This document shows positions 3,229-30,365 of a DNA stretch of 64,000 nt, piece after piece. The translations under genes and the position numbers were made by a program. The first letter of the stretch is position 1. The number at the start of each line of letters is the position of its first letter. The notes under the pieces were generated by a model. The model was not told where the DNA came from. It saw only the letters and a list, made by a program, of their open reading frames with translations, and searched no databases. Source of the stretch: Selaginella tamariscina (taxonomy: Eukaryota; Streptophyta; Lycopodiopsida; Selaginellales; Selaginellaceae); NCBI GenBank assembly GCA_003024785.1, contig PUQB01000263.1:221331-285330 (forward strand). Reading direction: 5' to 3'.

Positions 3229-3232
3229 CCTT
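3229..3232. other. Candidate left 4-bp target duplication (CCTT), outer transposon
   Basis: CCTT lies immediately outside the ATGCAC terminus at 3233. The same CCTT lies immediately outside the opposite terminus at 30362-30365. A 4-bp match alone is weak, but the inner copy shows the same arrangement with a different tetranucleotide. Confidence 0.55.
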
Positions 3233-3260
3233 ATGCACGTGTTTAACTAAAGTGGGCATG
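3233..3260 (+). repeat. Terminal inverted repeat, outer copy, left (gene-2 end)
   Basis: Begins ATGCAC and ends TAACTAAAGTGGGCATG. It shares this core with the other three element termini (11701-11727, 24529-24555, 30335-30361). Confidence 0.75.
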
Positions 3261-3531
3261 ATACGTGAAAATGGGAATATAAAATAAATTATTAATTAAT
3301 ACTTAAGTTTTAATTATTAATTAATCATTTAATTAATATGTAATTAAGCCTTAAATATTAATTAATTAATTAATTAATCCTTCAATAACCTTACTTAGTA
3401 AGGAATATTCCTAAAATATCTTAGAATATTCATATTATTCTAAAAATAGTTTACAATAATGAAGAAATACTATCAAACATAATTACAATGAAATCATTTT
3501 CTTATCAACATGTTAATTTTTTTATAAATAC

Positions 3532-6500
3532 TTTCTTCCTATCATACAAAGAAATCTTCTTATTTTGTCTAAATCATCACTCTCCGGATTAATCAAATCA
3601 TTTTGGTCAATATCTTGATGTTGTTGCCACCACTTAACACTCTCACGAATGCAATTGGGAGTTGCCATCCTTGTTAATACATAAGATATGATAAGAGAAG
3701 GTCTGCATAAAGGCTCATCTAAAAAACTGACGTTCCTTAAGAATAATATTATAAAGCACCCGGTTGCTATCCTTCATTTTATAAAATTCAATATCACGAG
3801 AAAGAAAAGCTTCAGGAAATGTATGATACGGTGGATACTGCTCACAAAAATTTTCGAGATTCTTCTTTCTGAGGCACGTATCCAAGTAGTTCACTAGCTC
3901 ATCCATGATATCGGTATCAGAATATGGATCGAAAGTGATTGGATGAATACAAGCAATGTTTTGGTTGAGCATAGCCTTCTGAGGAGAGTCGTCTACTACT
4001 AACATCTGTGCGTTCTTCATTATCCTTAAGCGACTGATCTCCCCATGAGTCCCAATTATTCTTTCATTCTTGAAGAAGTACGGCTTGCTTTCCTTTCTTA
4101 TATTGTGAAATTCGAGAGGTTTATAACATATTCGCTGGTCAAAAATCCAATCTTTACGAATCACCTCTTCTGCAACACTACAATGTTTCTTAAGTAAATT
4201 CAACAGCAGTGTTAAGTTATGAATCTGCATGCATGACCAAATCCCCATAAGCGCACCCATCTCCTTAAGCTTTGAAAGAGACGATCCAACCCTGGACGAA
4301 AAAAATATCATATCGAAATTTACCATGACAAGGAATGAAATCTCCTTGTTTGATTCTTTTTTCTATCCTGGGCCTTTGTCGATGAAGCAGAACACCATTG
4401 ACATCCAACAACACAATATAGCCATGAGTAACATGAGATAGCGTTGCCCTTGAATACTTTGCAAATCACTTGTTTGCTCCCTTTCACATTTATCCGTTGC
4501 CACTATCTCGTTGCCTATCCCTTCATCATTTAATTGTACATCATCCTTACAAGATTCAGATATTGCATGCGCTGAAGCAATTGATTTCGGAATGAAGCCA
4601 ATAAAATGATGATGAAAAAATGAAGTGGCCCCATGGTAACGATGTTTGAGCTGCATTATTATCTATTTCCTGCATGAACTCTGTCATTCTGACATGTGGC
4701 ACAAGAAATTGTCGCCAAACCCCTCTCTTACCTCATGGCAATGCTGAAAATCCATGTTCTCAATGTTCATTACATCTGCAAAATGATAATTAGCTGACCT
4801 TAAAATTATTCAAGGTATATTATTTACCTTGTTAATGTGTGACCCATGTTTGAACTAAAAGCTTCATTAATCCTGAGAATTTATTTTCTGTACAAATATA
4901 AAGAAATATACAAAAATGCCTTATGTTACACTCATTTACAACTATTCCTCACTCTATCAATTCATTAACAATTCTTCTTCGCTATTACCTTCTGAGTGAG
5001 GCGAAGAAGGTTTAAGCCGCTTGTGAGATGGTTCAAGATCTTCTGCATCTTCTATTGATGTTTCCATGGGTAATGGAGTGTGCGAATGTTCTGTACTCCT
5101 CGAGAAACTTCCGGTCTAATATCTGATTGAAGTTCGTTCTCAGACTCCGAGATTGAACCAGATTCACCTTCAGAGCTATCGCACTTATCTGGAGGGAACT
5201 TTCTCAAATACGCCTTTATGGATTCGTTGGGGTACTCAGTTGAGACCCAATCTATCCACTTGTTCAGGTCCTCAACCATGGTCTTATCCTTTTCAATGGC
5301 AACACACATGTATGCCGAAGGTAACACTCCTTCAAGACGGACCCCCTAGTGCAGTAGTCAAAAACCCACGCATCACTGTGAGGACCCCTAATCAAGTTGA
5401 CGATGCTCCGTGCCGCTTGACTTGTAATGTTGGATAACGTACATTGCCGAATACGTCACTCCCACCTATCGGTGTATCGGATGGAGGTTCAGGGCCGTTG
5501 GAGTGCAAACAGATGCCTGGCCAGTCATTTGGAAGCTTGAAATTGTTTGGCGCATTCCTAACAACCAAGTGAACAACGGTATCAATGCACTTGGATTAGC
5601 ATCGTTCATATAAAATCCTGTCCAACGATGTCTATTCTTCTTGGCGAAGGCGAAGGCAAAAGTATCGGTGACATGAGCAGAATCAAGAAATAAATACCTG
5701 AAAAAGTAGGTATCAGTGAAGAGCGCAAGCATGAATTCAATAATAAATACCTTCTATGTATATGCTTGCACGGCTAAGTTTCTCCACCAGATCCTCTAGT
5801 GCCCTATCTGTCGAAAGATTTTTTGACACCCGCCGATCCATCACGAACAATTGAAACGGTTTCCTACAAGCAGTGATGTTACCCCAAAGTCTCCGAATAA
5901 CAACAAACATCTGTAGGGCTTGTCGTGATTCGTAGCATCCTCCTTTATAAGGTTCAATTCGGTTCTTCCTCTGCTGCTGAAGGACTGCCATAAGAGAAGG
6001 CGTCATCCCAATGTTCTCCTTTTTGGCGTTGGCGTGCAATAGATTCTTGCCTAGATCTTCCGATTGTTCACCCATTCGACAAGCATATCATCGTTCGTCA
6101 CATGCAAATATTTGCTGACCTCTTCATATGTTGAGGTCGAGGTCCAACCCAGTTTGTGGCAGTGTATTCCCAACCACTCCTTGAAATGCCTGACCGTCTT
6201 CAACTCCATTGCCTTGAGATGAAAAGGAGAGGTTGGGCTGCTGTTATTAATTTGTAGTTTGCCATCGATCACCAAATCAGCCAAGACTTCCATCTCCTCC
6301 ATCGTTGTTCCATTTAAAGGCTTCAACCATGTGAGCTTGAAATCGTTGTCTACATCCTTTGTAGATTGAACAGACTTAGCCTTCGGCGTCTTACTGGGTT
6401 TTTTTGCAGACTTTTCTGAGGGCTCCACTTCACTTGTCTGCTTCTTCTTCAGTGTTCCTTTTGAAAAGGATTCCATAATCCCCAACCTCTGAGAAAAAGA

Positions 6501-7751
6501 CAGATTAATATACCGGCAAGATAAATCCCGCCCAGACAATTTGCTTACCCGGTAGTTCGCAGATTGTGTATTTCCTGCAGTAACTCTTTGTGGTCGCTCA
6601 AGAGATTCCCAACACGGATCGCGTGTGTTTAAACTTCTCCCATATTTTGCTGTTGTAGTGGTTGTGTCGGCAGCGGTCCCATTCGCCGATAACTTATGGT
6701 ACTGCTCGATTGTGAGATTCGGCTTCGCTAAAAATGCCGATCTTTTGTCAGCTTCTCACGGGTATGCTCGGAAAGTTTTGTTGCCATCGTTCCTTTGTTG
6801 TGTTCCTCGAGAAGTCGTTGGGCTGCCGTTATTGTGTGCTGGCCACTAATGATGTAGTACTTGATAGATTTTTATTCTTCGTCTGAATCTTCATGAGTTG
6901 TTCTAGTGTTGTGATCCAGACTTTGTCAGCGCCCTTCCTTCTTTCATAGTATAGACACAAAACAGCATTATGTGGAACGGTATAAGAATTGTCGTCCTTC
7001 ATCTTCTCCATGAGCTCAGCTACACATTCCTGTTGAGTGGCCTGTAATTGAAGTTTGGGTTGACGCTGCAATATTTAACCCTACAAGGATAAATCTTTTC
7101 ATCCAACATCATTTCCTTGTGACTTATTGCAGCATGAGATGCCACAGGTGCAGCTGACAAAACGATTGATGATTTTCTTTTGCGATCCGAATGAACATGT
7201 GTGATCCCCGACTGCAGCTGTTCTAGTGTTCTCGGCACACTCTTCCAGCTCCCGAAGCTTCCTAAGCAAATTGAACGTGATCTGTAGAGAACCTGAGACC
7301 GAGCCACCTTCTCAATCTCCCTTATGATGTCGCTGTGTTCTTCTTCAATGTGAAGAGGGAAGATTGCTCCACTTGCTGATTTTCTGTATTGTGAAGCAAT
7401 ATCTCCTGACAATACACCTACTCAATGAGTCTGAAGATCTTCGAAGTAGACATCCAGATGGATCCCCTCCATAGATGGGCTTTCGTTGAGTTGAAGAAGA
7501 ACTCCAAGGTCAACATCATTAGTGAACACGTGAACGTCATTATCCACAAGTCGACAAAACCACCCGAAATTAATGTTGTAACTGACGACCTCTGGATCCG
7601 AGAACGTGACATTGGATGGAACAAGGCATATCTGTCGAGAATCGTCCAATCTGGGTTCGCAACCTGCTTTTGGGTGCTTGACTAGCGAATCTACTTTCCA
7701 TTGTTTTGCTTGTCCATGAGATGTGACAGAGGTTAATTTGACAGCAACCAT
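3532..7751 (-). pseudogene. Transposon gene 2, outer copy: multi-exon protein with C-terminal FCP1/NIF-like HAD domain
   Basis: Read on the minus strand. The most upstream exons (7751-7422, 7412-7020, 7071-6829) encode unrecognised sequence. A second block starts at the ATG at 6476 with a Lys/Ser/Pro-rich tail, followed by KTVRHFKEWLGIHCHKLGW and LFVMDRRVSKNL regions that I also do not recognise. The 3' exons (4656-3532) encode an FCP1/NIF-type HAD fold: GIWSCMQIHNL, DWIFDQR, SKPYFFKNE and the Asp-rich VVDDSPQKA motif with a downstream IHPITF. Members of this fold remove phosphate from proteins such as the RNA polymerase II tail. The equivalent of motif I reads LLDVNG in the inner copy (Asn at the second aspartate position), as in a known plant subclass, so catalysis is uncertain. 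Several frame breaks occur, including six Ts at about 3725-3730 against five in the inner copy. Exons upstream of 6735 have no counterpart in the inner copy. Confidence 0.6.
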
Positions 7752-8279
7752 GGTTGCTCCAATGCGCTTCCCATTTATCTTAAATTATGGCCAAGTTGAT
7801 TCCAGAATCCCCTACCCATCTCTTCTCCTGCTCTTGTCTTTAATGTCACCTCAATTCCACATCTGAATACAAAAATGATTAGTTCAAGTATCCGAGTATA
7901 ACAGATTTTATTTAATTCTTACCCAGAATTTGACGACGACTCCATACTAATGACTCGATCTCCTTGTTTGATAAATCGTCCTTCTGCAAAATAATACACT
8001 ATGAATACAAATCATATAAAAACGCACACACACTTGTATAAACCCGAATATACAAAAATAATACACAGAGAGAAGTAGACGTAATTAACTGTCCGAAGCT
8101 CACATTTGTGCTAGTGCAAAAGAAAGATAACATTTCGTTTTAAACCACCACAAATGTGAGCTCTGGACAGTTTTACATAGATTCCTAGCTTTTACTCGAA
8201 ATATTATGATAAGATGATAAAAGTAAATAAAATGAGATATGCAACTTATATATACTAATACACATATATATTCACATGG
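7752..8279. other. Upstream region of transposon gene 2 (outer copy)
   Basis: AT-rich sequence with possible small upstream exons or a leader (an acceptor-like pyrimidine stretch, then sequence around 7860-7990). It includes a short inverted repeat around the words CACATTTGTG/CACAAATGTG (about 8100-8160). No complete coding unit is visible. It lies between the gene and the palindrome array, so promoter sequence is likely here. Confidence 0.35.
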
Positions 8280-9765
8280 AAGGTGCGGCGGGATTAATCT
8301 CGCCACCCCTTCAATGCCTCATGAAAGAGTGGGCGGGATTAATCTCGCCACCTTTCTGGAGGCCTTGAACGGGAGTGTGGAATTAATCTTGCCACCCTTC
8401 TCGGTCTCAGAGAGAACTGGGCAGGATTTATTTCTCACACCCCTTCAGTGACTCCAGAAAGGAGGCGGGATTAATCTCGCCCACCATGTAAGGGATGGTT
8501 AAATGAATCTCGCCACCCTTCCCAGTCCCCTCCATTGGTATGTTGTAAACCTTCTACGTCTTTATACAGAAACGTTTGGGATTGGTCCAACTCACCAATG
8601 GAGGAAAAAGGGAAGGGTGGCGAGATTCATTCTCCAACAGGCATTGAAGACTCGGCGGGATTAATCCCGCCGCCCAGGGCCTTCACTCGATCCCTATGCG
8701 GTGGGATTAATTCCGCCGGACGGCAATTCCCTGCGCGGAATCGGGCGGATTAATCCCGCCGCCTAGGCACTTCAGACAGGCCAATGGCGGCGGGATAAAT
8801 CCCGCCCGATTCTGCGCAGGGCATGCGTACGCGGCGGGATTAATCCCGCCTCCCAGGCCCTTCACTCGGGCCTTAGTCAGCGGATTAATCCCGCCGAACG
8901 CCAATGCCCTGTGCAAAATCTTGCGGGATTAATCCCGCCGCCTAGGCCCTTCAGGCAGGCCAATGGCGGCGGGATAAATCCCGCCCGATTCCGTGCAGGG
9001 CATGCGTACGCGGCGGGATTAATCCGGCTCACCATGTAAGGGATGGTGAAATTAATCCCACCACCCTTCTCAGTTCCCTCCATTGGTATATTGTAAACCT
9101 TCTCCGTCTCAGATAGCATTAGTTGGGATTGATTCAACATACCAATGGAGGAAAAAAGGGTGGCGGATTAATCCCGCCACCGGGCAATGAAGGTTCGGAG
9201 AGATTAATCCCGCCGCCCTCTCGTAAATCATGCGCTCACACATATATATTGTCTGCGGCATTTTGAACAGGGATGGGTGGGGCGGGATTAATCCCGCCGC
9301 TTATATCCTGCGGAAGTGCCTGAGCGGCGGATTAATCTTGCCGCCCTCCGCGAAGGGCATGAGCGTGGGGCGGGATTAATCCCGCCGTTCATGTCCTGCG
9401 TGAATTCCCTGGGCGGTGGATTAATCCCGCCGCCTTACGCGCAGGACATGTCATGCAGGCTCTTCGGTTAGGATCTTTCATGCAGGCTCTTCGGTTAGCC
9501 TCATGAGCGGCGGGATTAATCCCGCCGCCCATCCCGTGTAAATGCCCTGCACGGAATCCACCGGGATTAATCCCGCCCATTAGGGCCTTCACACAGGCCA
9601 TTGCCGGCGAGAAAATCCTGCCGCATTCCGCGCAGGGCATGGGTGAGTGGCGGGATTAATCCCGCCGTCGAGGCCCCAACCATATAGCGGCAGGATTAAT
9701 CCCGCCGCCGAGGCCATAAACCTATAGCGGCGGGATTAATCCCGCCGCTCAAGGGGCTTAGCGTG
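8280..9765. repeat. Palindrome array 1 (outer copy): GGCGGGATTAATCCCGCC with spacers
   Basis: Dozens of perfect or one-to-two-base-variant copies of the 18-bp palindrome GGCGGGATTAATCCCGCC, one every 35-60 bp, in an otherwise AT-rich element. Spacers are mostly unique but occur in inverted pairs: words such as CCTGCGCGGAATCGG recur as their reverse complement across a central palindrome. At the gene-proximal end (8280-8520) the units are more decayed and pair with GCC-ACC edges. The array sits 5' of gene 2. Every unit is two GGCGGGA/TCCCGCC half-sites around TTAA, so each could bind a dimeric protein or extrude a small cruciform. Confidence 0.95.
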
Positions 9766-9835
9766 TGTGCGAGAGAAAAAAATAATAAATAAAAAAATTA
9801 TACAGAAAAAACACACACATATATATATATGTGTG

Positions 9836-9878
<43 letters not shown>

Positions 9879-10637
9879 AGGAGTGTACGTGTGCGTGCAA
9901 GAGATAGATAAATAAATAAAATTATACAGTACTGGTACAATATATGTGTGTACATAGGTATATATATGTATATCGTGTGTATGCGTGTGAGCGAAACAAA
10001 TAAAATCATACAGATAAACAAACACACACACACACATATATATACACAGGAGTGTGCATGTGTGTGCGAAAAGTAAAACTAATAAATAAATAAAATTATA
10101 CAGATAAACACACACATATATATGTGTGTATATAGATATATAACCCATAGAGAAAAAGAGAGAGTCTGTGAATATATAAGCATATATATAAACTAGTGTT
10201 GTATACTATTTGTTAATATGCATTGATTATATATAATATATATATATATGTGTGTTGTGTGTGTGTGTGTGTGTGTGTGTAAAGCAGTGTGCGTGTGTGG
10301 AGAGATAGATCAATAAAAAAAATTATATAGATACTGGTACACATAATATATGTATGTATATATGTATATAGGTATGTATATATGTGTATATGTATATTGT
10401 GTGTATGCGTGTGTGAGCGAAACAAATAAAATCATACAGATAAACAAAACACACACACACACATATATATACATAGGAGTGTGCGTGTGTGTGCGAGAGA
10501 TAAAACTAATAAATAAATAAAATTATACAGATAAACACACACATATATATATGTGTGTATATAGATATATAACCCATATGAATATATAAGCATATATATA
10601 AACTAGTGTTGTATACTATTTCTTAATATGCATTGAT

Positions 10638-10678
<41 letters not shown>

Positions 10679-10800
10679 AAGCAGTGTGCGTGTGTGGGAG
10701 AGATAGATCAATAAAAACAAATTTATAGATACTGGTACACATAAAATTATACGCACACTCCTATACATATATACATACATACATATACACACACACACAC
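9766..10800. repeat. Microsatellite block with ~430-bp tandem repeats (outer copy)
   Basis: Dense (CA/TG)n, (TA)n and GTAT runs. A longer unit is superimposed: AATAAATAAATAAAATTATACAG followed by CACACATATATATGTGTG, AACCCAT and AAGCAGTGTGCGTG, seen near 10080 and again near 10509. Open frames here are low-complexity Tyr/Ile/His strings and not genes. Mirrored at 18650-19865 in the inner copy. Confidence 0.85.
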
Positions 10801-11690
10801 ATCTCACTTGTGTGCACAGCCGCCGCCGCCGATTTCACAGCCGCCGCCTCTTGAAACCCTAAGAATATACTTAAATCCTAAAGGAATTAAATATATATAT
10901 TAACCCTAATAGAATATTCCTTCTGAGAATATACTTAAACCCTAAAAAGAATAAAATATAGATTCGCCCTAAACGAATATTCTTTCATTATATTATTAGC
11001 GTGTGCGTGTGCGTGGGTGTATCACATACACCCCAAAATATAAATCATGCAGGGATTTAACATGTGTGTGTCCATGAGAGTGTTAAAGTTTCATGTATAT
11101 CAATACATACATATACATACATAGTATATGAGAGAAGAGAGACAGTACATATTATGGATCATGCATGGTGTGTATTATACACACAGACATACATACATAT
11201 TAGTACATAATATTAGAGAGACCGAGTACATATTATAGATCATGCATGGTGTGTATGTTTGAGAGAAGACAGACAGTACATATTAACATGGATCATGCAT
11301 GGTGTGTATGTATGAGAGAAGACAGAAAGTACACATATATACATACAGAGTACATATATATACATACACACGTGTATACACACAGACATACATACATATT
11401 ACATGAGTAAATTCATTGTGTTACATATTAGGGTTAGGGTTTAGGGTTTAGGATGGATCATGCATGGTGTGAAGAGAGAGTGTTGAAAAATTATTTTTGT
11501 ACACACATGTATACCACAGGGTTTAGGGTTTAGGGTTTAGGGTTTGTTCCCAACAAGCTTAATATAAATATTACACATGTAAATTCAATGTGTTACATAC
11601 ACACAGATTGAATACATATATCATACATGCGTTGAATATGATGTTTTCAATAAAGAAGTAACATATTTCTTCAGTTTGGTTTAGGGTTGT
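10800..11690. repeat. Telomere-like and CATGCATGGTGTGTAT repeats (outer copy)
   Basis: Contains short runs of TTTAGGG (11428-11453 and 11518-11546) and several copies of a diverged unit containing GATCATGCATGGTGTG with GAGAGAAGA-CAGTACATAT (11110-11350 and 11455-11480). A GCCGCC-rich patch is at 10820-10850. The block lies at the internal junction where the inner copy inserted. Mirrored at 17611-18650. Confidence 0.85.
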
Positions 11691-11696
11691 GCATGT

Positions 11697-11700
11697 GTGT
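11697..11700. other. Candidate 4-bp target duplication (GTGT), inner transposon, left
   Basis: GTGT immediately precedes the ATGCAAG terminus at 11701, and GTGT immediately follows the opposite terminus at 24556-24559. The context is GT-rich, so chance is possible. The precise rejoining of the flanks supports it. Confidence 0.55.
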
Positions 11701-11727
11701 ATGCAAGTTGTAACTAAAATGGGCATG
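11701..11727 (+). repeat. Terminal inverted repeat, inner copy, left (transposase end)
   Basis: ATGCAAG followed by TTGTAACTAAAATGGGCATG. The same 27 bases occur as reverse complement at 30335-30361, the transposase end of the outer copy. Confidence 0.8.
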
Positions 11728-12189
11728 GCTATAGTCCCATTTCCTAATAATTAGCAATTTTAGCTATTTAATTAGCATTTTCTAATATTAAAGGAATATT
11801 CTTTAGAATATATGTTTGAAAAGAGAATATTCTTTAGAATATTCTATTTTGTATTCTCTATTCATTGAACAAAAATTAATAACATTATAAAAGTAGAAGG
11901 TATTAAATTATATAATATATTGCCTAATATAACAATTAAGGAAGAGCATAAGAGGTACATTATATAAATATTGATGTTGTTATTAAAATATTAATATTTA
12001 AATATAACATTATTAATTAAAAATTTGTAGTAGTAATAATATATATATAAAATCCTATAATAATATAGTCAATCTTCCATATCATTTTTTAAATTTATAT
12101 AGTTAAGTATACAATTTGGTACTATTATTAAAGAGTTTATAATAATTATGAATATTAAATATATGATATTTTATAATTTTGTAATTGCT
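11728..12189. other. AT-rich 3' flank of the inner transposase gene
   Basis: Very AT-rich, no coding frame. It includes a small inverted repeat of GAATATTC words (about 11790-11850). Mirrored at 29857-30334. Presumably holds the transposase 3' untranslated region and subterminal sequence. Confidence 0.5.
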
Positions 12190-15100
12190 TTAAGCTTCAG
12201 AAAACATACATTCCCTTGCAGTTTTGTTAATCGTGACTTTATCAACGCTTCTTGACATCCACCCATATCGAATGGATTTAACATTTATAAAACATGCTGG
12301 GTCTTTTTGATTGGGAGACCATGTTTTCTCTAGGCATCCATTATATCTTTCGCTCTCCTTCTCGTGTCGCCTTTTTTGTGGTTTGAACCATGCAACCTTA
12401 ACAATACTATTTTTTGTGATTACTTCAGGTGTGTCGATAATTTGACCCATCCAAATAGGCTGATTATATGACGCATCTGGAGTAATGAGAACCATCATTA
12501 GTTTTTGAAGATCCTTGCAGCAATCAAAGTATGCTTTAGGTTTTTGGTTCCTTTGTCCAACAAAGTGTGGGGTTTGCACTTCCACATCACTACTGGCTTC
12601 TATGTCGTCTATGCTCAGTGATGTCATTTCAATCTCCTCTCGCCACCTTGTTTTAGGCCAGAAAGGGTGTTGCAATTCTGTACTTGTGACAGTAGGCCCT
12701 TCCAACTCTCGAACAACAGTCTCCCAATAGTCGACCACATGCTTATATAGTTCTGAGTAACCAGTTGCCTTATCAGAATTCTTTGGCATCGATTTTTGAA
12801 CCCATGCCACATATTTTTTGATGCCATCAATAATAACCTCTTGTTCCTTGAGCTGGGCACTCAATGGAATAGGGTCTGGTTGTCCTTCTGGGAGAAGTGG
12901 CTTTCCATCCTCTCCACTTTTGAAGAGCATTAAGCCCTCTTTCGGTAACCACTCCTGCTCTGATGGCCGTAACTTGTACTGCATAATAGGTATACCATCT
13001 CGTATGGAGAAAAAGAATTGTAGCGGCACAAGGTGACCAACTAAAGAATCACTCCCTTCTTTTATATACTCCTTGAGAAATTTTTTGAAGTCTGGCACCT
13101 CAGTCACAAGCAAAGCACAACTTTTTTTGGAGATGCAATTTTCAAAAAGATTCATCATATGCGGTAAGGTAAGTGCACTTGTCCTTTTTGTAGAGTTGGA
13201 GACCTTGCTGAAGAACGCATCAATATCTTCATGAGTGTGACCAACCATAAGGAAACTGAGCGTGATTGTTTCAAACACACCTTTGGCAACAAGCATTGAC
13301 AAGTATGCTAGCACATATCTAGAAAATAAAAGTAAGTATGAGCTTGAGAAACCCTTAAGTAAAATGATTTACCTATTTTTGTTCTCGCCTGCACAATTAT
13401 CCATCTGTAAAAGCAAATGACGAGGAAGCTTATTTGATGTTGAGGACACATGTACACTATTTGAGCTAGATCCCTCCACTGAACCAGAACTCTCAACAGG
13501 GCCATCTGTTTTTTGTGCAGGCTGTTGACAATGCCTCTCATATTCCCAAGTAGCCTCAAGTGCAGACGTGTTCATGAGAGCATTATGTAAAGGTTGAAGG
13601 TGTTGTTTCTTCACTTTGAGATCACTGATAGGACTTGTCTGTGAGTGGGCTTCAAGGTTTCTGAAACACATGGCTAACGACCCAATAGTGAAATTGGAGT
13701 CGCTAGACCAATGTGGAAGTGAAAAGTGTCCATATGACTCACAACCGTGTCCATGTGTTAGCACACCTGTCAATGAAATCGGAAGTTTCATGACATTTCC
13801 AAGGCACTTTGGTGTTGCAAAGAGCTTTGGAATGCTGGTCTTTGAATGATCCATCTTGTCATGGATCAAGCACAGGTACTCTGATGGGCGTGACACAGAA
13901 AGCATGCGGTGTGCATAGTACTGAGACCGGCAAGTTTGTTGTGCAATCATGTGGGCCTCCATCTTCTTTTGAATGGTAGTGATCTCCACCAAGGTTTTTG
14001 CACAAGCCTCTGCAGCCTTCAATGATGTACAAGTGTCACACTTGGAAAAGCTAGAGTGTTTTGCAATCTCCACATCCTTAAAATGAGTATTCCATATGTT
14101 GTTGAAGGTACCAGTGCAGATTGCTTGGAGCCCCATCAAACTGAGGCACTTGTTCACATGTTCACACAGCTTCAATTGAGTGTAGATTGAAGGCAAAACC
14201 TTGAGATTTTCCCTGACCCCTGCATTTGTGGTTCGGCATTTGTGAGGCATCCTGTCTGCATTTGCTTCCACAAAAGCCTTGAGTATCTCTATGGCTGCCA
14301 TGATGTGAGAGCGGGTTTTGACCAAGCGAGTGTTCCCATGAACTGAGGTTCGCGCTCCATCTAGCCACTCATCCCTCCGACGGTAGAACGTGGTCTTTGG
14401 GATCCCGTATATACTGTACCAAGCTTTGAAGCAGATGGCCACCTTATTAAATACCATGGATGTACTCTGATAACCTGTGTCCGAGGCCATTCCATCAATA
14501 CACCCAGTTAGTGCAGCATATACAAACTCATGCCTTTGCTTTTGGGTGAGCATACGAAAGACATGTCTACATTGGGTAATTTCATTCCGGTCTGCCATCT
14601 GACAACACTTCTTCTTGCAACAGTCAATCGTGGAAATGCTCGTAACACTTTCGGAAGATGTAGGATCCATCTTTACCCTCTTGCTGAAACTTGCAGGGGA
14701 AGATCTACAACCCATGAATCGCCTTTTTCTTACAATAGGACCAATGCAAGGAACCTCTTCAAATATGAGTTGTTCTTCCGGGTTGTTATTATTGAAATCC
14801 AACCCAGAATATGTTGAACCATCTTGCCGTCTTAATTCAGATGTTCGCCACCTCACGAGGGATCCAGGATACAATGTGCCATTAGGTGAAACCTCTGTCA
14901 CAACTACACCCACGAAGTCGGACCCTAGTTTCTCTTCTGACACTGCTTCCATTGGATTTATAGCTGTGATGATGCCTCTTCCGACTTCAATCTCACGAAG
15001 AAAGAGAATCACCTCATCCATCACAGCAGGCAAGCCATCATCTGGTAAACTCGTGCTACTATTTGTTTGTGACTCTGCATATTCTGTGTCAGCCTTGACT

Positions 15101-15309
15101 TCATCCAAATTCCACAATACAGGAGAACCCTCCTCAAATTCCATTCCCAGAACCTCAACATGCTTGTAAATGGTGTTCACCCATACGTACACACAAGATC
15201 CTTGGGCAATATTGTGACATGATGCATTATTATCTCGAACTTCCACAGTTCCAGTGCCAACTATCTCGTTGTTCCGAAGAAGACATACTTTATCTCCAGT
15301 ATTAAACAT
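12190..15309 (-). CDS. Putative DDE-type transposase with DUF7869-like core (inner copy, intact, 2 exons)
   Basis: Two exons: 15309-13373 and 13318-12190, with a 54-bp GT-AG intron (13319-13372) that must be removed because it carries an in-frame stop. The product is about 1021 aa. An N-terminal module (GDKVCLLRNN onward) resembles beta-rich modules of plant transposon proteins. Next come a Cys cluster (CCKKKCC), an HTH-like segment (YGIPKTTFYRRRDEW then VHGN), and a second Cys pair (KCDTC). The core has HDKMDHSKT, GVLTHGHG, QMDNCAGENKNRYVLAYL and GHTHEDIDAFFSK. This order is characteristic of DUF7869 proteins. The spaced Asp/Asp/Glu-Asp positions would suit an RNase H-fold DDE nuclease, which is inference. 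Start: the ATG at 15309 is the first in frame. The preceding bases (TTTATGTGCAG on the coding strand) look like a splice acceptor, so an upstream leader exon is likely. Confidence 0.8.
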
Positions 15310-15456
15310 ATTGTCCTGCACATAAATAATTGTATTATTTATGATATCTGTTTATGCAATATTTCTAAGAAATCTGAATTACGGTTACTTAATAATATGC
15401 ATATGCAATAATACATAATTATGTTTAGAGATAATATCTCATGTTTGATTAATACA

Positions 15457-16180
15457 ACTGATGGGCGGGATTAATCCCGCCCACGAATCCCTCCGACGAG
15501 GAACGGTCGGCGGGATTAATCCCGCCGCCGACTCAACCCCTTCGGAGAGAGTCGGCGGGATTAATCCCGCCTTGGACTCCCTCCGACAAGGAAGAGCCGG
15601 CGGGATTAATCCCGCCGCCTCCCTCCTCGGGGAGTCCGGCGGGATTAATCCCGCCGACTCTCTCCCGGGGAGTCGGCGGGATTAATCCCGCCGACTCTCC
15701 GGAGAGAGTCGGCGGGATTAATCCCGCCGGACTCCCCCGAGGAAGGGAGCGGCGGGATTAATCCCGCCGGCTCTTCCTTGTCGGAGGGAGTCCAAGGCGG
15801 GATTAATCCCGCCCACAATTCTTACGACGGGGAATGGGTGGCGGGATTAAACCCGCACATAACTCTCTCCAAAACTATGATTTCAAAGAGATCTCGGGAT
15901 AAATCCTGTCCCCAAATCCTTAAAACAGGGATGTGGTGGCGAGATTAATCCCGCCACCCCTTCCCTGCCTCCTAAAATGGTTGGCGGGATTAATCCCGCC
16001 GACAACTCTTTCTAATAAATTCTGGTAACTCTTCATCAGTTGAGAAGGTTATCGGCGGGATTAATCCCGCCACTCTTTTTCAGTGGCGGAGAAGCATTGC
16101 CCGAGAGATGGTGGCGGGATTAATCCCGCCACCTCTTCGAAGAGGCGAAAAAGAAATGGCCGGATTAATCCCCCCCCGGT
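15457..16180. repeat. Palindrome array 2 (inner copy), with nested mirror-image spacers
   Basis: By hand count, 12 exact copies of GGCGGGATTAATCCCGCC plus several variants. Spacers from 15560 to 15800 form a higher-order palindrome centred near 15688: TTGGACTCCCTCCGACAAGG on the left recurs as its reverse complement at 15770-15795, and the central spacer is itself self-complementary (GACTCTCCGGAGAGAGTC). The array lies upstream of the transposase coding start, between it and a possible leader exon near 16345-16500. Confidence 0.95.
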
Positions 16181-16199
16181 TAACCTAGAATATTAAGTT

Positions 16200-17590
16200 A
16201 AAAGGATATTTAAACGGGATAAATCCCTAACGGAATATATTATAATCCTAATGCATTCCTAAACCCCTAAATTGTAATTTTAAGAGAGAATGTAAGAGAG
16301 TGAATCTTTATAAGTATTTTTAAATTTGTTTATAATACTTACTTGTAAACAGCACTGAAGGCGCCGTGCTTTCCTATAAAGAATAGCACCCAATTTAATC
16401 TCGCTCCTGAGATGATCACTATGAAGAAAAAAGAAGATCTAAAGAGTGAAAAATACAGAAATGAAGAAACCCTTGCCGGAGAAAGAACCAGATCTGAATT
16501 TGAGTGGGAAATTAAATGCATTTTCAAATTTACATGTCAGACCGACAATACATATGTCAGAAATTCAAATTTTTTAAAAAGAACAGAAAATAAAATTTAA
16601 GATGAGTTGACACAAATATCCGACACTCTGACATATATACTCTCCAGTTCCAATGAGTATTTTAAAATTGCATTTAATGTTATTCAAGTGATTCAAGCTG
16701 TTTAATATTACGAAATTTTAGACTATATTCTACATTCTTAGTATTCAAGTATATTTATATATATATATATAAATATATACTTATACAATAAATAAATTGA
16801 TATATTATTATGTATCATTTAAAATATATTCATAGTCTGTTTATTATTATTATTTTCTTAATTACTCGAGTATTTAGTTTTCATTTCCTCCTATCAATGG
16901 GATATTCTTATTATTTTATTAATATTTGAAGAATATTCTAATATTAAACCTGATTATCATAATTAAATTAGTCTTGTTCTTAATTATTGCAGAGTAATTA
17001 TTCTACATTTGTATATATTAATGGGATTTTCTCAATTAATTTGTTATTATTTCAAGAATATTCCTGTGTTAAACCTTATTATCAATATTAAATTAATATA
17101 TATTATTAAAACTATATATGACTATATATTAGATAAAATGATGTATTATTATGTATAATTTAAAATATGTTCATAGTGTTATATTAATATCATTTCCTTA
17201 ATTACTTGAGTAATTAATCTTCTTTATATTAATGGGATATTCTTTATTATTTTCTTATTATTCCAAGAATATTCCAATATTAAACATGATTATGATAATT
17301 AATTTAGTTAATTATTTGAGTACTTAATTTACATTTGGGATTTTCTCAATTAATTTCTTATTATTTCAAGAATATTTCAATGTTAAACCTTTTTATCAAT
17401 ATTAAATTTATATATTATTAAAACTATATATGGCTATATATTAGATAAAATCATATATTATATGTATAATTTAAAATATGTTCATAGTGTGTTTATTAAA
17501 TTATTTTCTTAATTATTCGATGTTTGTTTTGCACACATATATAAACACAATCATAAATTTACACACGCATTACAAGAACTTACAAAAACA
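16200..17590. repeat. AT-rich region with ~300-bp tandem repeats (inner copy)
   Basis: About 80% AT by eye. From 16790 to 17530 a unit of roughly 300 bp recurs two to three times (words AATTTAAAATATGTTCATAGTGT, then AATGGGATATTC and TCAAGAATATTCC). Near 16343-16510 is a CT-rich/AG-rich stretch that, on the minus strand, ends in a GTAAGT donor (TTTACAA then GTAAGT). This may be a non-coding leader exon of the transposase gene. Short frames there (62 aa on both strands) are not convincing genes. Confidence 0.65.
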
Positions 17591-18645
17591 CATATGCATA
17601 CACATGCACAACCCTAAACCAAACTGAAGAAATATGTTGCTTCTTTATTGAAAACATCATGTTCAACACATGTATGATATATGTACTCAATCTGTGTGTA
17701 TGTAACACATTGAATTTACATGTGTAATATTTATATTAAGCTTGTTGGGAGCAAACCCTAAACCCTAAACCCTAAACCCTGTGTATACATGTGTGTACAA
17801 AAATAATTTTTCAACACTCTCTCTTCACACCATGCATGATCCATCCTAAACCCTAAACCCTAAACCCTAATATGTAACACAATGAATTTACTCATGTAAT
17901 ATGTATGTATGTCTGTTGTATACACGTGTTATGTATATATGTGTACTCTGTATGTATATATGTACTTTCTGTCTTCTCTCATACATACACACCATGCATG
18001 ATCCATGTTAATATGTACTGTGTCTCTTCTCTCAAACATACACACCATGCATGATCTATAATATGTACTCGGTTCTCAAATAATGTTTAATATGTATGTA
18101 TGTCTGTGTGTATAATACACACCATGCATGATCCATAATATGTACTGTCTCTCTTCTCTCATATACTATGTATGTATATCTGTGTATAATATGTGTAAGT
18201 ATATATGTACTAATATATGCAATGTGTACAAAAATAATTTTTAACACTCTCTCTTCTCTCATACATACACACCATGCATGATCCATCCTAAATCCAAAAC
18301 CCTAAACCCTAAACCATGTAATATATGTATGTCTGTGTATACACGTGTGTATGTATATATTATGTGTATTAATATATGCAATGTGTATGTATGTATTGAT
18401 ACACATGAAACTTTAACACTCATGGACACACACATGTTAAATCCCTGCATGATTTATATTTTTGGGGTGTATGTGATACACCACGCACACGCACGCGCTA
18501 ATAATATAATAAAAGAATATTCGTTTAGGGCGAATCTATATTTTATTCTTTTTAGGGTTTAAGTATATTCTCAAAAGGAATATTCTATTAGGGTTAATAT
18601 ATATATTTAATTCCTTTAGGGTTTAGGTATATTCTTAGGTTTCAA
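17591..18645. repeat. Telomere-like and ATGCATGATCCAT repeats (inner copy)
   Basis: Reverse-complement counterpart of 10800-11690: CCCTAAA runs at 17755-17780, 17845-17870 and 18298-18315, and repeated CACACCATGCATGATC units. The intact inner junction between the two halves of the element lies at about 17591-17620. Confidence 0.85.
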
Positions 18646-19005
18646 GAGGCGGTGGCTGTGAAATCGGCGGCGGCGGCTGTGCACACAGGTGAGATCTGTG
18701 TGTGTGTGTTGTGTGTGTGTATGTATGTAGTATATATGTATAGGAGTGTGCGTATAATTTTATTTATTAGTTTTATCTCTGCACACACACGCACACTCCT
18801 GTGTATGTATATGTGTGTTGTGTGTGTTTGTTTATCTGTATGATTTATTTGTTTCGCTCACACACGCATACACACGATATATATAAACATATATATATAT
18901 ACCTATATACATATATACATACATATATTATGTGTACCAGTATCTATAAAAAAAATTTTATTGATCTATCTCTCCCACACACACGCACACTGCTTTACAC
19001 ACACA

Positions 19006-19045
<40 letters not shown>

Positions 19046-19866
19046 CAATGCATATTAAGAAATAGTATACAACACTAGTTTATATATATGCTTATATATT
19101 CATATGGGTTATATATATACACACATATATATATGTGTGTTTATCTTATATTTTATTTATTTATTAGTTTTATCTCTCGCACACACACGCACACTCCTGT
19201 GTATATATATGTGTGTGTGTGTGTTTTTATCTGTATGATTTTATTTTTTCGCTCACACACATACACACAATATATATACAAATATATATATATACATATA
19301 TACATACATATATTATGTGTACCAGTATCTATATAATTTTTTTTATTGATCTATCTCTCCCACACACACGCACACTGCTTTACATATATATATATATATA
19401 TATATAATATAATCAATGCATATTAACAAATAGTATACAACACTAGTTTATATATATGCTTATATATTCACAGACTCTCTATATCTTATACACACATATA
19501 TATGTGTGGTTTATCTGTATAATTTTATTTATTTATTAGTTTTATCTTTCGCACACACATGCACACTCCTGTGTATATATGTGTGTGTGTGTGTGTTTTC
19601 TGTATGATTTTATTTGTTTCGCTCACACGCATACACACGATATACATATACACACATAATATACCTATGTACACACATATATTATGTGTACCAGTACTGT
19701 ATATTTTATTTATTTATTTATCTCTTGCACACACACGTACACTCCTATACAACATACATACATACATTACATATATATATATATATATATACACACACAT
19801 ATATATATGTGTGTTTTTATATGTATAATTTTTTTATTTATTAATTTTATCTCTCGCACACACGCT
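18646..19866. repeat. Microsatellite block with ~300-430-bp tandem repeats (inner copy)
   Basis: Mirror of 9766-10800 with an additional repeat unit: TATTTATTAGTTTTATCT units flanked by (CA)n, (TA)n and CACTGCTTTACA recur near 18760, 19165 and 19525. No gene. Confidence 0.85.
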
Positions 19867-21090
19867 AAGCCCCTCGAGCGGCGGGATTAATCCCGCCGCT
19901 ATAGGTTATGGCCATGGGGCGGGATTAATCCGCCGCGAGGCCTCACGCAGGTATGGGCGCGGGATTAATCCCGCCCTCAGGCAATCGAAGAGCGGCGGGA
20001 TTAATCCCGCCGCTCTAGGACAAATCGAAGAGCGGCGAGATTAATCCCGCCGCCCATGGCCTGCGTGAGGGGCCTCGGCGGCGGGATTAATCCCGCCGCT
20101 CACCCATGCCCTGCGCGGAATGCGGCGGGATTTATCTCGCCGGCAATGGCCTGTGTGAAGGCCCTAATGGCCAGGATTAATCCCGGCGGATTCCGCGCAG
20201 GGCATTTACAGGGGATGGGCGGCGGGATTAATCCCGCCGCTCATGAGGCTAACCGAAGAGCCTGCATGAAAGATCCTGCACGGAAGGCTAACCGAAGAGC
20301 CTGCATGACATGTCCTACGTGTAAGGCGGCGGGATTAATCCCGCCGACCAGGGAATTCACGCAGGACATGAACGGCGGGATTAATCCCCCCACGCTCATG
20401 CCCTTCGCAGAGGGCGGCGGGATTAATCCCGCCGCTCAGGCACTTCCGCAGGATATAAGCGGCGGGATTAATCCCGCCCCCACCCATCCCTATTCAAAAT
20501 GCCGCAGCCAATATATATGTGTAAGCGCATGATTTACGAAAGGGCGGGATTAGTCTCTCCGAACCTTCATTGCCCGGTGGCGGGATTAATCCCGCCACCC
20601 TTCTTTTTTCCTTCATTGGTATGTTGAATCAATCCCGACTAACTCTGTCTGAGACGGAGAAGGTTTACAAAATACCAATGGAGGGAACTGAGAAGGGTGG
20701 TGGGATTAATTTCACCATCCCTTACATGGTGGGCGGGATTAATCCCGCTGCGTACGCATGCCCTGCGCGGAATCGGGCGGGATTTATCCCGCCGCCATTG
20801 GCCTGCCTGAAGGCCTAGGCGGCGGGATTAATCCCGCAAGATTTTGCACAGGGCATTGGCGTTCGACGGGATTAATCCCGCCGACTAAGGCCGAGTGAAG
20901 GGCCTGGGAGCGGGATTAATCCCGCCGGACGCCAATTCCTTGCGCGGAATCGGGATTTATCCGCCGCCATTAGCCTGTCTGAAGTGCCTAGCGGCGGATT
21001 AATCCCGCCGATTCCGCGCAGGGAATGGCGTTCAGCGGGATTAATCCCGCCGACTAAGGCCCGAGTGAAGGCCTGGGAGATTTTAGCGAA
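19867..21090. repeat. Palindrome array 1 (inner copy)
   Basis: Mirror of outer array 1. Contains many GGCGGGATTAATCCCGCC copies with inverted-pair spacers such as CCTGCGCGGAAT/ATTCCGCGCAGG and GCTAACCGAAGAGCCTGCAT direct repeats (20230-20310). It ends abruptly at about 21090 against gene 2 sequence, where the outer copy has about 2.1 kb more. Confidence 0.95.
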
Positions 21091-21099
21091 GCCGAATCT

Positions 21100-24000
21100 C
21101 ACAATCGAAGTACCATAAGTTATCGGCGGAATGGGACGCTGCCGACACCAACCACTACAACAGCAAAAATATGGAGAAGTTTAAACACACGCGATCCGTG
21201 TTGGGAATCTCTTGAGCGACCACAAAGAGTTACTGCAGGAAATACACAATCTGCGAACTACCGGGTAAGCAAATTGTCTGGGCGGGATTTATCTTGCCGG
21301 TATATTAATCTGTTTTTTCTCAGAGGTTGGGATTATGGAATCCTTTCAAAGGAACACTGAAGAAGAAGCAGACAAGTGAAGTGGAGCCCTCAGAAAAGTC
21401 TGCAAAAAAAACCCAGTAAGACGCCGAAGGCTAAGTCTGTTCAATCTACAAAGGATGTAGATAACGATTTCAAGCTCACATGGTTGAAGCCTTTAAATGG
21501 AACAACGATGGAGAGAGAAAGTCTTGGCTGATTTGGTGACGATGGCAAACTACAAATTAATAACAGCAGCCCACCTCTCCTTTCATCTCAAGGCAATGGA
21601 GTTGAAGACGGTCAGGCATTTCAAGGAGTGGTTGGGAATACACTGCCACAAACTGGGTTGGACCTCGACTCAACATATGAAGAGGTCAGCAAAATATATT
21701 GCATGTGACGAACGATGATATGTTGTCGAATGGGTGAACCAATCGGAAGATCTAGGCAAGAATCTATTGCACGCCAACGCCAAAAAGGAGAACATTGGGA
21801 TGACGCCTTCTCTTATGGCAGTCCTTCAGCAGAGAGAAATTATTATGAGGATGCTACGAATCACGACAAGCCCTACAGATGTTTGTTGTTAGATTCGGAG
21901 ACTTTATGGGGTAACATCACTGCTTGTAAACCGTTTCAATTGTTCGTGATGGATCGGCGGGTGTCAAAAAATCTTTCGACAGATAGGGCACTAGAGGATC
22001 TGGTGGAGAAACTTAGCCGTGCAAGCATATACATAGAAGGTATTTATTATTGAATTCATGCTTGCGCTCTTCACTGATACCTACTTTTCAGGTATTTATT
22101 TCTTGATTCTTGCTCATGTCACCGATACTTTTGCCTTCGCCTTCGCCAAGAAGAATAGACATCGTTGGACAGGATTTTATATGAACGATGCTAATCCCAA
22201 GTGCATTGATACCATTGTTCACTTGGTTGTTAGGAATGCGCCAAACAATTTCAAGCTTCCAAATGACTGGCCAGGCATCTGTTTGCACTCCAACGGCCCT
22301 GAACCTCCATCCGATACACCGATAGGTATGAGTGACGTATTCGGCAATGTACTTATCCAAACATTACAAGTCAAGCGGCACGGAGCATTGTCAACTTGAT
22401 CAGGGGTCCTGACAGTGATGCGTGGGTTTTTGACTACTGCACTAGGGGTCCGTCTTGAAGGAGTGTTACCTTCGGCATACATGTGTGTTTGCCGTTGAAA
22501 AGGATAAGACCATGGTTGAGGACCTGAACAAGTGGATAGATTGGGTCTCAACTGAGTACCCCAACGAATCCATAAAGGCGTATTTGAGAAAGTTCCCTCC
22601 AGATAAGTGCGATAGCTCTGAAGGTGAATCTGGTTCAATCTCGGAGTCTGAGAACGAACTTCAATCAGATATTAGACCGGAAGTTATCTCGAGAGTACAG
22701 AACATTCACACACTCCAGGACCCATGGAAACATCAATAGAAGATGCAAAAGATCTTGAACCATCTCACAAGCGGCTTAGACCTTCTTCGCCTCACTCAGA
22801 AGGTAATAACGAAGAAGAATTGATAATGAATTGATAGAGTGATGAATAGTTGTAAATGAGTGTAACATAAGGCATTTTTGTATATTTCTTTTATATTTGT
22901 ACAGAAAATAAATTCTCAAGGATTAATGAAGCTTTTAGTTCAAACATGGGTCACACATTAACAAGGTAAATAATATACCTTGATAATTTTAAGGTCAGCT
23001 AATTATCATTTTGCAGATGTAATGAAATAATTGAGAACATGGATTTTCAGCATTGGCATGAGGTAAGAGAGGGGTTTGGCGACAATTTCTTGTGCCACAT
23101 GTCAGAATGACAGAGTTCATGCAGGAAATGGATAATAATGCAGCTCAAAACATCGTTACCATGGGGCCACTTCATCATCATTTTTATTGGCTTCAGTTCC
23201 GAAATCAATTTCTTCAGCGCATGCAATATCTGAATCTTGTAAGGATGATGTACAATTAAATGATGAAGGGATAGGCAACGAGATAGTGGCAACGGATAAA
23301 TGTGAAAGGGAGCAAACAAGTGATTTGCAAAGTATTCAAGAGGCAACGCCATCTCATGTTACTCATGGCCATATTGTGTTGTTGGATGTCAATGGTGTTC
23401 TGCTTCATCGACAAAGGCCCCAGGATAGAAAAAACAGAAATCAAACAAGGAGATTTCATTCCTTGTCATGATAAATTTCATATGATATTATTTTTCGTCC
23501 AGGGTTGGATCGTCTCTTTCAAAAGCTTAAGGAGATGGGTGCGCTTGTGGGGATTTGGTCATGCATGCAGATTCATAACTTAACACCGCTGTTGAATTTA
23601 CTTAAGAAACATTGTAGTGTTGCAGAAGAGGTGATTCGTAAAGATTGGATTTTTGACCAGCGAATGTGTCATAAACCTCTCGAATTTCAGAATATAAGAA
23701 AGGAAAGCAAGCCATACTTCTTCAAGAATGAAAGAATAATTGGGACTCATGGGGAGATCAGTCGCTTAAGGATAACGAAGAATGCACATATCTTAGTAGT
23801 AGATGACTCTCCTCAGAAGGCTATGCTCAACCAAAACATTGCTTGTATTCATCCAATCACTTTCGATCCATATTCTGATACCGATATCATGGATGAGCTA
23901 GTGAACTACTTGGATACGTGCCTCATAAAAGAATCTCGAAAATTTTTGTGAGCAGTATCCACCGTATCATACATTTCCTGAAGCTTTTCTTTCTCGTGAT

Positions 24001-24267
24001 ATTGAATTTTATAAAATGAAGGATAGCAACCGGGCGCTTTATAATATTATTCTTAAGGAACGTCAGTTTTTAGATGAGCCTTTATGCAGACCTTCTCTTA
24101 TCACATCTTATGTATTAACAAGGATGGCAACTCCCAATTGCATTCGTGAGAGTGTTAAGTGGTGGCAACAACATCAAGATATTGACCAAAATGATTTGAT
24201 TAATCCGGAGAGTGATGATTTAGACAAAATGAAAAGATTTCTTTGTATGATAGAAAAAATTTTATAA
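21100..24267 (+). pseudogene. Transposon gene 2, inner copy: FCP1/NIF-like HAD protein, 5'-truncated
   Basis: Inverted homologue of the outer gene 2. A likely 5' exon ends with a GTAAGC donor at about 21267. The next exon follows the acceptor TTTTTTCTCAG at 21322, with an ATG at 21335. Later blocks match the outer copy (KTVRHFKEWLGIHCHKLGW near 21610, LFVMDRRVSKNL near 21940). The HAD part starts near 23360 with IVLLDVNGVLLHR (motif I equivalent), then GIWSCMQIHNL, DWIFDQR, VVDDSPQKA, and continues past a frame break near 23930 to a TAA at 24265. The C-terminal extension (CIRESVKWWQQHQDIDQNDL) is open here. At least five frame breaks relative to the outer copy prevent a continuous frame. Function as a phosphatase is unproven. 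Confidence 0.6.
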
Positions 24268-24528
24268 AAAATTAACATGTTGATAAGAAAATGATTTCAT
24301 TTGTAATTATGTTTGATAGTATTTCTTCATTATTGTAAACTATTTTTAGAATAATATGAATATTCTAAGATATTTTAGGAATATTCCTTACTAAGTAAGG
24401 TTATTGAAGGATTAATTAATTAATTAATTAATATTTAAGGCTTAATTACATATTAATTAAATGATTAATTAATAATTAAAACTTAAGTATTAATTAGTAA
24501 TTTATTTTATATTCCCATTTTCACGTAT

Positions 24529-24555
24529 CATGCCCACTTTAGTTACAATGTGCAT
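24529..24555 (-). repeat. Terminal inverted repeat, inner copy, right (gene-2 end)
   Basis: Reverse complement reads ATGCACA then TTGTAACTAAAGTGGGCATG, pairing with 11701-11727. GTGT follows at 24556-24559. Confidence 0.8.
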
Positions 24556-24559
24556 GTGT

Positions 24560-25975
24560 GCATATGTGTTTTGTTTCTTGTAATGCGTGTGTAAATTTAT
24601 GATTGTGTTATATATGTGTGCAAAACAAACATTGAATAATTAAGAAAATAATATTAATAAACACACTATGAACATATTTTAAATTTACATAATATATTGA
24701 TTTTATCTAATATATAGCCATATATAGTTTTAATAATATATATTAATTTAATATTGATAAAAAGGTTAACATTGAAATATTCTTGAAATAATAAGAAATT
24801 AATTGAGAAAATCCCATTAATATATACAAATGTAAATTAAGTACTCAAATAATTAACTAAATTAATTATCATAATCATGTTTAATATTGAATATTCTTGG
24901 AATAATAAGAAAATAATAAAGAATATCCCATTAATATAAAGAAGATTAATTACTCAAGTAATTAAGGAAATGATATTAATATACACACTATGAACATATT
25001 TTAAATTATACATAATAATACATCATTTATCTAATATATAGTCATATATATTTAATAATATATATAATTAATATTGATAATAAGGTTTAACACATGAATA
25101 TTCTTGAAATAATAACAAATTAATTGAGAAAATCCCATTAATATATACAAATGTAGAATAATTACTGCAATAATTAAGAACAAGACTAATTTAATTATGA
25201 TAATCAGGTTTAATATTAGAATATTCTTCAAATATTAATAAAATAATAAAGAATATCCCATTGATACTAGGAAATGAAAACTAAATACTCGAGTAATTAA
25301 GAAAATAATAATAATAAACAGACTATGAATATATTTTAAATGATACATAATAATATATCAATTTATTTATTGTATAAGTATATATTTATATATATAATAT
25401 AAATATACTTGAATACTAAGAATGTAGAATATAGTCTAAAATTTCGTAATATTAAACAGCTTGAATCACTTGAATAACATTAAATGCAATTTTAAAATAC
25501 TCATTGGAACTGGAGAGTATATATGTCAGAGTGTCGGATATTTGTGTCAACTCATCTTAAATTTTATTTTCTGTTCTTTTTAAAAAATTTGAATTTCTGA
25601 CATATGTATTGTCGGTCTGACATGTAAATTTGAAAATGCATTTAATTTCCCACTCAAATTCAGATCTGGTTCTTTCTCCGGCAAGGGTTTCTTCATTTCT
25701 GTATTTTTCACTCTTTAGATCTTCTTTTTTCTTCATAGTGATCATCTCAGGAGCGAGATTAAATTGGGTGCTATTCTTTATAGGAAAGCACGGCGCCTTC
25801 AGTGCTGTTTACAAGTAAGTATTATAAACAAATTTAAAAATACTTATAAAGATTCACTCTCTTACATTCTCTCTTAAAATTACAATTTAGGGGTTTAGGA
25901 ATGCATTAGGATTATAATATATTCCGTTAGGGATTTATCCCGTTTAAATATCCTTTTAACTTAATATTCTAGGTT
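24560..25975. repeat. AT-rich tandem-repeat region (outer copy, right part)
   Basis: Reverse-complement counterpart of 16200-17590, with the same ~300-bp repeats between 24640 and 25390. A possible non-coding leader exon of the transposase gene ends at 25814 (CTGTTTACAA followed by GTAAGT). A splice from there to the acceptor TTTATGTGCAG at 26734 would place palindrome array 2 inside intron 1. Confidence 0.6.
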
Positions 25976-25977
25976 AA

Positions 25978-26592: not shown

Positions 26593-26740
26593 TTGTATTA
26601 ATCAAACATGAGATATTATCTCTAAACATAATTATGTATTATTGCATATGCATATTATTAAGTAACCGTAATTCAGATTTCTTAGAAATATTGCATAAAC
26701 AGATATCATAAATAATACAATTATTTATGTGCAGGACAAT

Positions 26741-29700: not shown

Positions 29701-29856
29701 TATAATGGATGCCTAGAGAAAACATGGTCTCCCAATCAAAAAGACCCAGCATGTTTTATAAATGTTAAATCCATTCGATATGGGTGGATGTCAAGAAGCG
29801 TTGATAAAGTCACGATTAACAAAACTGCAAGGGAATGTATGTTTTCTGAAGCTTAA
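26741..29856 (+). pseudogene. DUF7869-like transposase gene, outer copy, frameshifted in exon 2
   Basis: Exon 1 (26741-28677) gives the same 646-aa translation as the inner copy. The 54-bp intron is 28678-28731. Exon 2 starts intact (TATGTGCTAGCATAC) but loses one base near 28857 (CAACCTAC here, CAACTCTAC in the inner copy). It carries further small lesions near 29320 and 29430 relative to the inner gene, ending at the same TAA (29854-29856). The core HDKMDHSKT, MDNCAGENKNR and GHTHEDIDAFFSK motifs precede the first lesion. As read, this copy would make a truncated protein. The single-base nature of the lesions leaves room for consensus error. Confidence 0.75.
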
Positions 29857-30361: not shown

Positions 30362-30365
30362 CCTT

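Follow-up and report, generated by a model that had tools for sequence, protein, structure and literature searches.

Palindrome arrays in a DUF7869 transposon of Selaginella tamariscina as candidate binding platforms for a regulatory protein

The window, that is, the whole 64-kb stretch of Selaginella tamariscina DNA analyzed here, carries arrays of an 18-bp perfect palindrome, GGCGGGATTAATCCCGCC, that are real, associated with one transposon family, and binding-site-like, and that belong to an uncharacterized kind of transposon. With a probability of about one half, we read these arrays as cis-regulatory binding platforms on which a symmetric and probably homodimeric protein controls the genes of the element and/or counters its silencing. 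A sequence-specific, two-fold symmetric protein of this sort, probably a homodimer, would bind at many copies of the palindrome ahead of each of the two divergent gene regions and, once bound, would set the transcription of both regions and/or counteract silencing of the element. In the best-studied array, a nearly constant motif stands among fast-changing spacers, a pattern that suggests docking sites for an element-controlling protein; binding by a protein, its dimeric state, and its action on expression or silencing are what we infer from this pattern. More speculatively, and given that a protein binds, it is somewhat more likely than not that the element itself encodes it.

The palindrome and the element that carries it

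When up to three mismatches to the palindrome are allowed, 72 sites are found in the window, compared with an average of 0.00 across 100 dinucleotide shuffles. All but two of these sites fall into four arrays of 21, 15, 22, and 12 sites (Table 1), and 36 of the 70 arrayed sites are exact. Genome-wide, the exact palindrome occurs 27,128 times in 300.7 Mb, while a reversed-pattern control occurs 0 times, so that the arrays described in an earlier note on this DNA are genuine. Across a wider sample of 387 sites with up to five mismatches, the spacing of sites has its mode at 44-45 bp, and core positions 7, 8, 11, and 12 of the motif are retained at 98.7-99.5%. The two lone motif-like sites, at 6515 and 21281 with three mismatches each, lie off the arrays within gene region A; a counterpart is present in five of six C1 copies, up to about 3.4 kb from the A end, the sixth copy of this comparison (c1_899k) not being cut at its end.

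Self-comparison and alignment of ends identify positions 3231-30364 of the window as one TIR-transposon copy with a second copy nested inside it. The inner copy (copy 1) measures 12.9 kb and is without part of the gene region A that is present in copy 2; four C1 copies cut at both TIRs place the full element length at 13.56-14.37 kb. From end to end the element consists of a TIR, gene region A (leftward, outwards), array A, an AT-rich core, array E, gene E (rightward, outwards), and the second TIR. The four arrays of the window therefore belong to two nested copies of one element, with two arrays per copy as the earlier note states, and in each copy they flank the AT-rich core, one before each gene region, roughly 4-5 kb inward of the element ends. 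This placement is identical in all eight copies examined. In copy 1 the nearest motif of array E stands about 155 bp upstream of the first ATG in gene E, and roughly 0.5 kb separates array A from the first ATG-led open piece of gene region A, which bears out the claim that the arrays lie upstream of both gene regions. The AT-rich core of the element also contains AAACCCT repeats of the plant-telomere type, at 11518-11545, 17753-17780, and 17845-17870.

Table 1. Coordinates of the nested element copies, their arrays and genes in the window, and of mini-elements at other loci.
Feature	Coordinates	Strand	Description
Copy 2, left part	3231..11697	+	A-end TIR, gene region A, array A, part of AT-rich core
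Copy 2, right part	24559..30364	+	Remaining core, array E, gene E, E-end TIR
Copy 1	11701..24554	-	Inserted in inverted orientation within core of copy 2; GTGT as 4-bp target duplication
AT-rich core of copy 1	16180..19879	.	Between the two arrays of copy 1
Array A of copy 2	8287..9746	.	21 sites, 7 exact
Array E of copy 1	15464..16175	.	15 sites, 12 exact
Array A of copy 1	19880..21051	.	22 sites, 8 exact
Array E of copy 2	25985..26586	.	12 sites, 9 exact
Gene E of copy 1	12190..15351	-	Two open pieces, 15351-13369 and, after a short GT-AG intron, on to 12190
Gene E of copy 2	26699..29856	+	Second exon split into two frames
Gene region A of copy 2	3715..7784	-	Multiple open pieces, interrupted by a stop and by frame breaks
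Mini-element	L035:1284-1528		TTAA at both flanks
Mini-element	L037:1490-1730		90% identical to L035, junction shared
Mini-element	L046:276-540		More distant, 76%

The ends of the element read ATGCA(A/C)GTTGTAACTAAA(A/G)TGGGCATG. An end motif, TAACTAAARTGGGCATG, occurs 1,716 + 1,705 times genome-wide (control, 0), which corresponds to about 1,700 pairs of ends. Relative to these pairs, the genome holds 15.9 exact palindromes per pair, and a count in eight copies gave 14.1, a density that fits association of the motif with one element family. Confinement to the family had been proposed as something to check, and it agrees with the 100 matches listed out of the 27,128 exact ones: all lie on contig C1, in clusters that we attribute to copies of the element family, whether full, partial, or diverged, although the assignment of one of them (C1:2071485) is weaker and relies on core-like matches of 72-88% alone. 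Among these 100 matches the motif does not appear as an unrelated satellite. When six stretches were picked by their TIRs with the motif ignored, four contained 9-15 sites; of the other two, L079 ends before the array position and L082 is part of a mini-element. The motif is also shared, in part as GGCCGGATTAATCCGGCC, by a diverged subfamily at C1:2.054-2.072 Mb, whose protein pieces are 35-78% identical. Among viral contigs the exact 18-mer is found in one contig only (L076), whose first 6,000 bases hold no motif array.

The distribution of sites bears on the possibility that they mimic those of a host transcription factor. Arrays upstream of both gene regions are what such mimicry would produce, and the motif half TAATCCCGCC may resemble an E2F-like site. 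However, no site off the element family occurs among the 100 exact matches listed, even if host sites could be degenerate, and we regard a host factor as most unlikely.

The ends also speak to mobility. An exact 4-bp target duplication flanks 10 of 20 end pairs, compared with 7 of 380 mismatched pairs; the remaining 10 pairs, copy 2 of the window included, are without one. An alternative offset for the duplication, with 13 of 20 pairs and a higher score, was set aside because the TGCA read there belongs to the TIR itself. Mini-elements of about 245 bp, built from the two element ends, carry no arrays (Table 1), and L035 alone among the three has a clean 4-bp duplication. Since these mini-elements exist without arrays, mobility probably does not depend on arrays in cis. 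We therefore weigh as very unlikely the explanation that the arrays are subterminal-type transposase sites required for excision, in the manner of the TNPA sites of CACTA elements: a weak, sub-cut-off TNP1/En/Spm domain in two relatives of the element's DUF7869 protein would accord with it, but the arrays stand kilobases from the ends, and array-less mini-elements share one junction at two loci, one of them with its clean duplication.

Conservation, spacers, and symmetry

The earlier note had argued that exact motifs are retained among diverged spacers. On the sequence evidence the palindrome is very well conserved in E arrays, and for most E-array pairs the argument stands, the motif mismatch being mostly below the spacer mismatch (for example, 0/270 versus 32/403 and 2/270 versus 22/400; one exception has 12/269 in motifs versus 18/424 in spacers). 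It does not stand for several A-array pairs, in which the motif mismatch equals or exceeds that of the spacers (for example, 37/486 versus 47/923). Pooled over array pairs with a spacer mismatch below 20%, mismatches amount to 643/9,801 (6.6%) in motifs, 1,743/16,480 (10.6%) in spacers, and 1,272/9,563 (13.3%) in flanks; the sites were collected by their similarity to the motif, which biases these figures towards conservation, and the flank value is inflated because A flanks align poorly. Across the copies compared, then, the motif is on the whole less variable than its spacers, chiefly in the E arrays.

Constancy and change meet most closely in the part of the E arrays that follows unit 6, a zone selected after its variation had been seen. 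In eight related E arrays, 57 of the 61 motifs in this zone are exact, with 6 of 1,098 motif letters off, while 28 different sequences occur among its 53 spacers; all of these spacers are short, so that none hides a decayed motif. To that extent the spacers are diverse, as claimed, but the description of them as mostly unique has to be amended, for between copies they recur in the same order, are sometimes inverted, and are dyad-symmetric. Units of the arrays have undergone duplication, inversion, and deletion with motifs as boundaries. Since any two copies of a perfect palindrome are homologous whichever way they are oriented, such events would find an explanation in the motif itself.

This behavior would also be expected if template switching, conversion, and unequal exchange kept the palindrome uniform and shuffled the spacers in the absence of any function. 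The motif-bounded rearrangements, the symmetry of the spacers, and the concentration of variability in a zone that forms a large inverted repeat all agree with such a purely mutational origin. Conversion, on the other hand, ought to homogenize the spacers as well as the motif, and neither the constant array position in 8/8 copies nor the diverged subfamily with the same motif is what it would lead one to expect; we consider this origin unlikely.

The spacers are more palindromic than their shuffles in 5/5 sets, the observed value being reached by 0/300 shuffles in each set, and two motif-spacer-motif pieces, folded as RNA, each beat 200/200 shuffles. The symmetry of the spacers and the strong folding of these pieces mark the array as a chain of symmetric units. 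Both results favor a role in structure, in which adjacent motifs would pair with the spacer as the loop end, and array transcripts would form chained hairpins that serve as a structured leader or as a source of small RNAs; alternatively, the DNA itself would extrude cruciforms. Some covariation points the same way. At motif positions 4/15, 10 symmetric double changes are observed against a maximum of 9 in 2,000 permutations, an excess that stems from a repeated unit in the old subfamily (with each distinct sequence counted once, 5 versus 4.3 expected), and in E arrays the base pair immediately outside the motif covaries (0.54 versus 0.34).

Within the motif, however, one-sided changes outnumber symmetric two-sided ones. 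For the six pairs of positions from the outside to the inside, the counts over 332 sites are 75/2, 24/1, 56/5, 64/10, 76/1, and 23/0, and base pairing is accordingly not supported as the main constraint on the motif, with positions 4/15 as the exception. Pairing alone also fails to explain why the motif letters stay constant beside changing spacers, so that a structural or small-RNA role appears doubtful. Mostly one-sided change favors recognition of letters, and hence a protein, and the symmetry of the motif suggests a dimer, as the reading of the arrays as binding platforms would have it. The conservation seen in E arrays, the motif shared by the diverged subfamily, the constant position of the arrays, and the array-less mini-elements likewise favor this reading; against it stand the A-array pairs in which motif and spacers do not differ, the symmetry of the spacers, and the covariation described above.

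Two further proposals fared no better. A predicted half-site rule, in which one good half suffices, was rejected since doubly damaged sites are not depleted in the main family (51 versus 42.3 expected), and this counts against the binding reading. Hypomethylation detected through spared CpG found no support, C-to-T-type change being 0.045 at motif CpG and 0.052 at other G/C positions.

Genes of the element and other features of the window

Both exons of gene E, whose GT-AG intron was read in copy 2, match Pfam DUF7869 (E 1.8e-12 and 1e-26; 47.7 and 94.2 bits against a Pfam cut-off of 26), and this is the only Pfam match in the window's gene E. Eight relatives of the protein were found at 28-36% identity, with HDKMD, DN..NKNR, and GHTHEDID as common blocks. 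Being the one recognizable candidate within an element that has TIRs and target duplications, the DUF7869 protein is the putative transposase. It is also a candidate binder of the motif, the one ground for this being the TNP1/En/Spm domain that two relatives show below cut-off (E 0.00066 and 0.0029) and that Pfam does not find in the window's own DUF7869 protein. No KDZ (Kyakuja-Dileera-Zisupton) model appears among the Pfam matches of gene E and six relatives, a result that depends on the library containing such a model. Relatives of DUF7869 were sought in viral contigs, where 17 stretches fit a pattern and 0 were confirmed, and a literature search for DUF7869 found no paper.

The last piece of gene region A (3715-4362, - strand) is NIF/FCP1 phosphatase-like, below cut-off in the window (E 0.003) and above the Pfam cut-off in another copy (L016:1563-2135, - strand; E 9.3e-11); this piece may represent a phosphatase gene in the transposon, either captured or the element's own. 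No homologs were found for it or for the rest of gene region A. A ParB/Srx-like stretch (GQHT..A) noticed by eye at 7100-6740 on the - strand was discarded, as Pfam, NCBIfam, PHROGs, and PDB sequences gave no ParB match; the sole match in this follow-up was to DUF1015, in gene region A of another copy (E 0.0096).

Outside the element, positions 1940-2573 hold a chromodomain and an SH3_Tf2-1 domain, a relic of Ty3/gypsy type, after which comes a tandem repeat of about 13 bp. Two direct repeats, 31936-33564 and 42171-43733, are 88-91% identical, lie about 10.2 kb apart, and are possibly the long terminal repeats of an old element. A piece of a PIP5K-family gene, presumably a plant FAB1-like gene, occupies 50469-50804 on the - strand; together with the AAACCCT repeats, it suggests a land-plant genome.

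Comparison with known systems

A constant repeat, varying spacers, and regular spacing recall CRISPR, a resemblance that the earlier note had called superficial. So it proves: the arrays lie in a eukaryotic transposon and their spacers are variants of one symmetric unit, the window has no Rfam match, and none of the 15 window pieces scanned with Pfam has a cas domain. In the EBV oriP family of repeats, a dimeric protein, EBNA1, reads arrayed palindromic sites of about 18 bp. This likeness is one of form, oriP being a viral replication and maintenance element.

CACTA elements have a TIR that begins with CACTA and a TNP2-type transposase. The TIR of the present element does not begin with CACTA, and Pfam finds no TNP2-type transposase in the window's gene E, where DUF7869 alone is matched. 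The likeness to the TNPA sites of CACTA (En/Spm) elements, as described in one report (PMC2613891), consists of a repeated motif, GC-rich and AT-rich parts, and a putative element-encoded binder in a plant transposon. In that report, the subterminal repeats of CACTA elements are cis-determinants of transposition, whereas the arrays here lie about 4-5 kb inside and are missing from mini-elements, and the target duplication of the CACTA element Tgmt* comprises three bases (PMC2613891). The duplication of about 3 bp in CACTA elements contrasts with the 4 bp found here.

In the VANDAL elements of Arabidopsis, an anti-silencing protein that the element encodes is recruited by closely packed motifs in non-coding regions (PMC5735166; PMC10398659). 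The same papers describe arrays of VANC targets that resemble those reported here in being dense, family-specific, short motifs in non-coding DNA upstream of genes, in which units are quickly gained and lost, and that differ in that the VANC21 motif is the 9-base YAGTATTAY in one orientation and not an 18-bp palindrome (PMC5735166; PMC10398659). Nor was a VANC-like or Mutator-type protein found here: Pfam reports no Mutator-type domain in gene E (DUF7869 only) or in the pieces of gene region A that were scanned, and the target duplication is of 4 bp. By the features tested, the element is neither VANDAL nor CACTA. Among the papers listed by searches on palindromes, subterminal repeats, and transposons, none deals with this element as judged by title and the opening of the abstract.

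Functionally, by analogy, the nearest systems would be the VANC arrays of VANDAL elements, followed by the TNPA sites of CACTA elements. To our knowledge, few transposon families carry site arrays of their own that are read by a dedicated protein. A tentative and more specific proposal is that a VANC-like self-regulation arose independently here, in which a dimeric protein of the DUF7869 transposon, the product of gene region A or of the N-terminal part of gene E, would recognize the roughly 15 exact palindromes of each element. With some 27,000 such sites available in a single genome, it would hold the entire family in an expressed or unsilenced state, and recombination at the palindromes would continually reshape the arrays. 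The palindrome, being exact and present in very high copy number, is well suited to a pull-down, and identification of its protein would assign a function to part of an uncharacterized transposon group. If the proposal is true, the element represents a second, unrelated case, and sequence-specific self-regulation of transposons evolves repeatedly.
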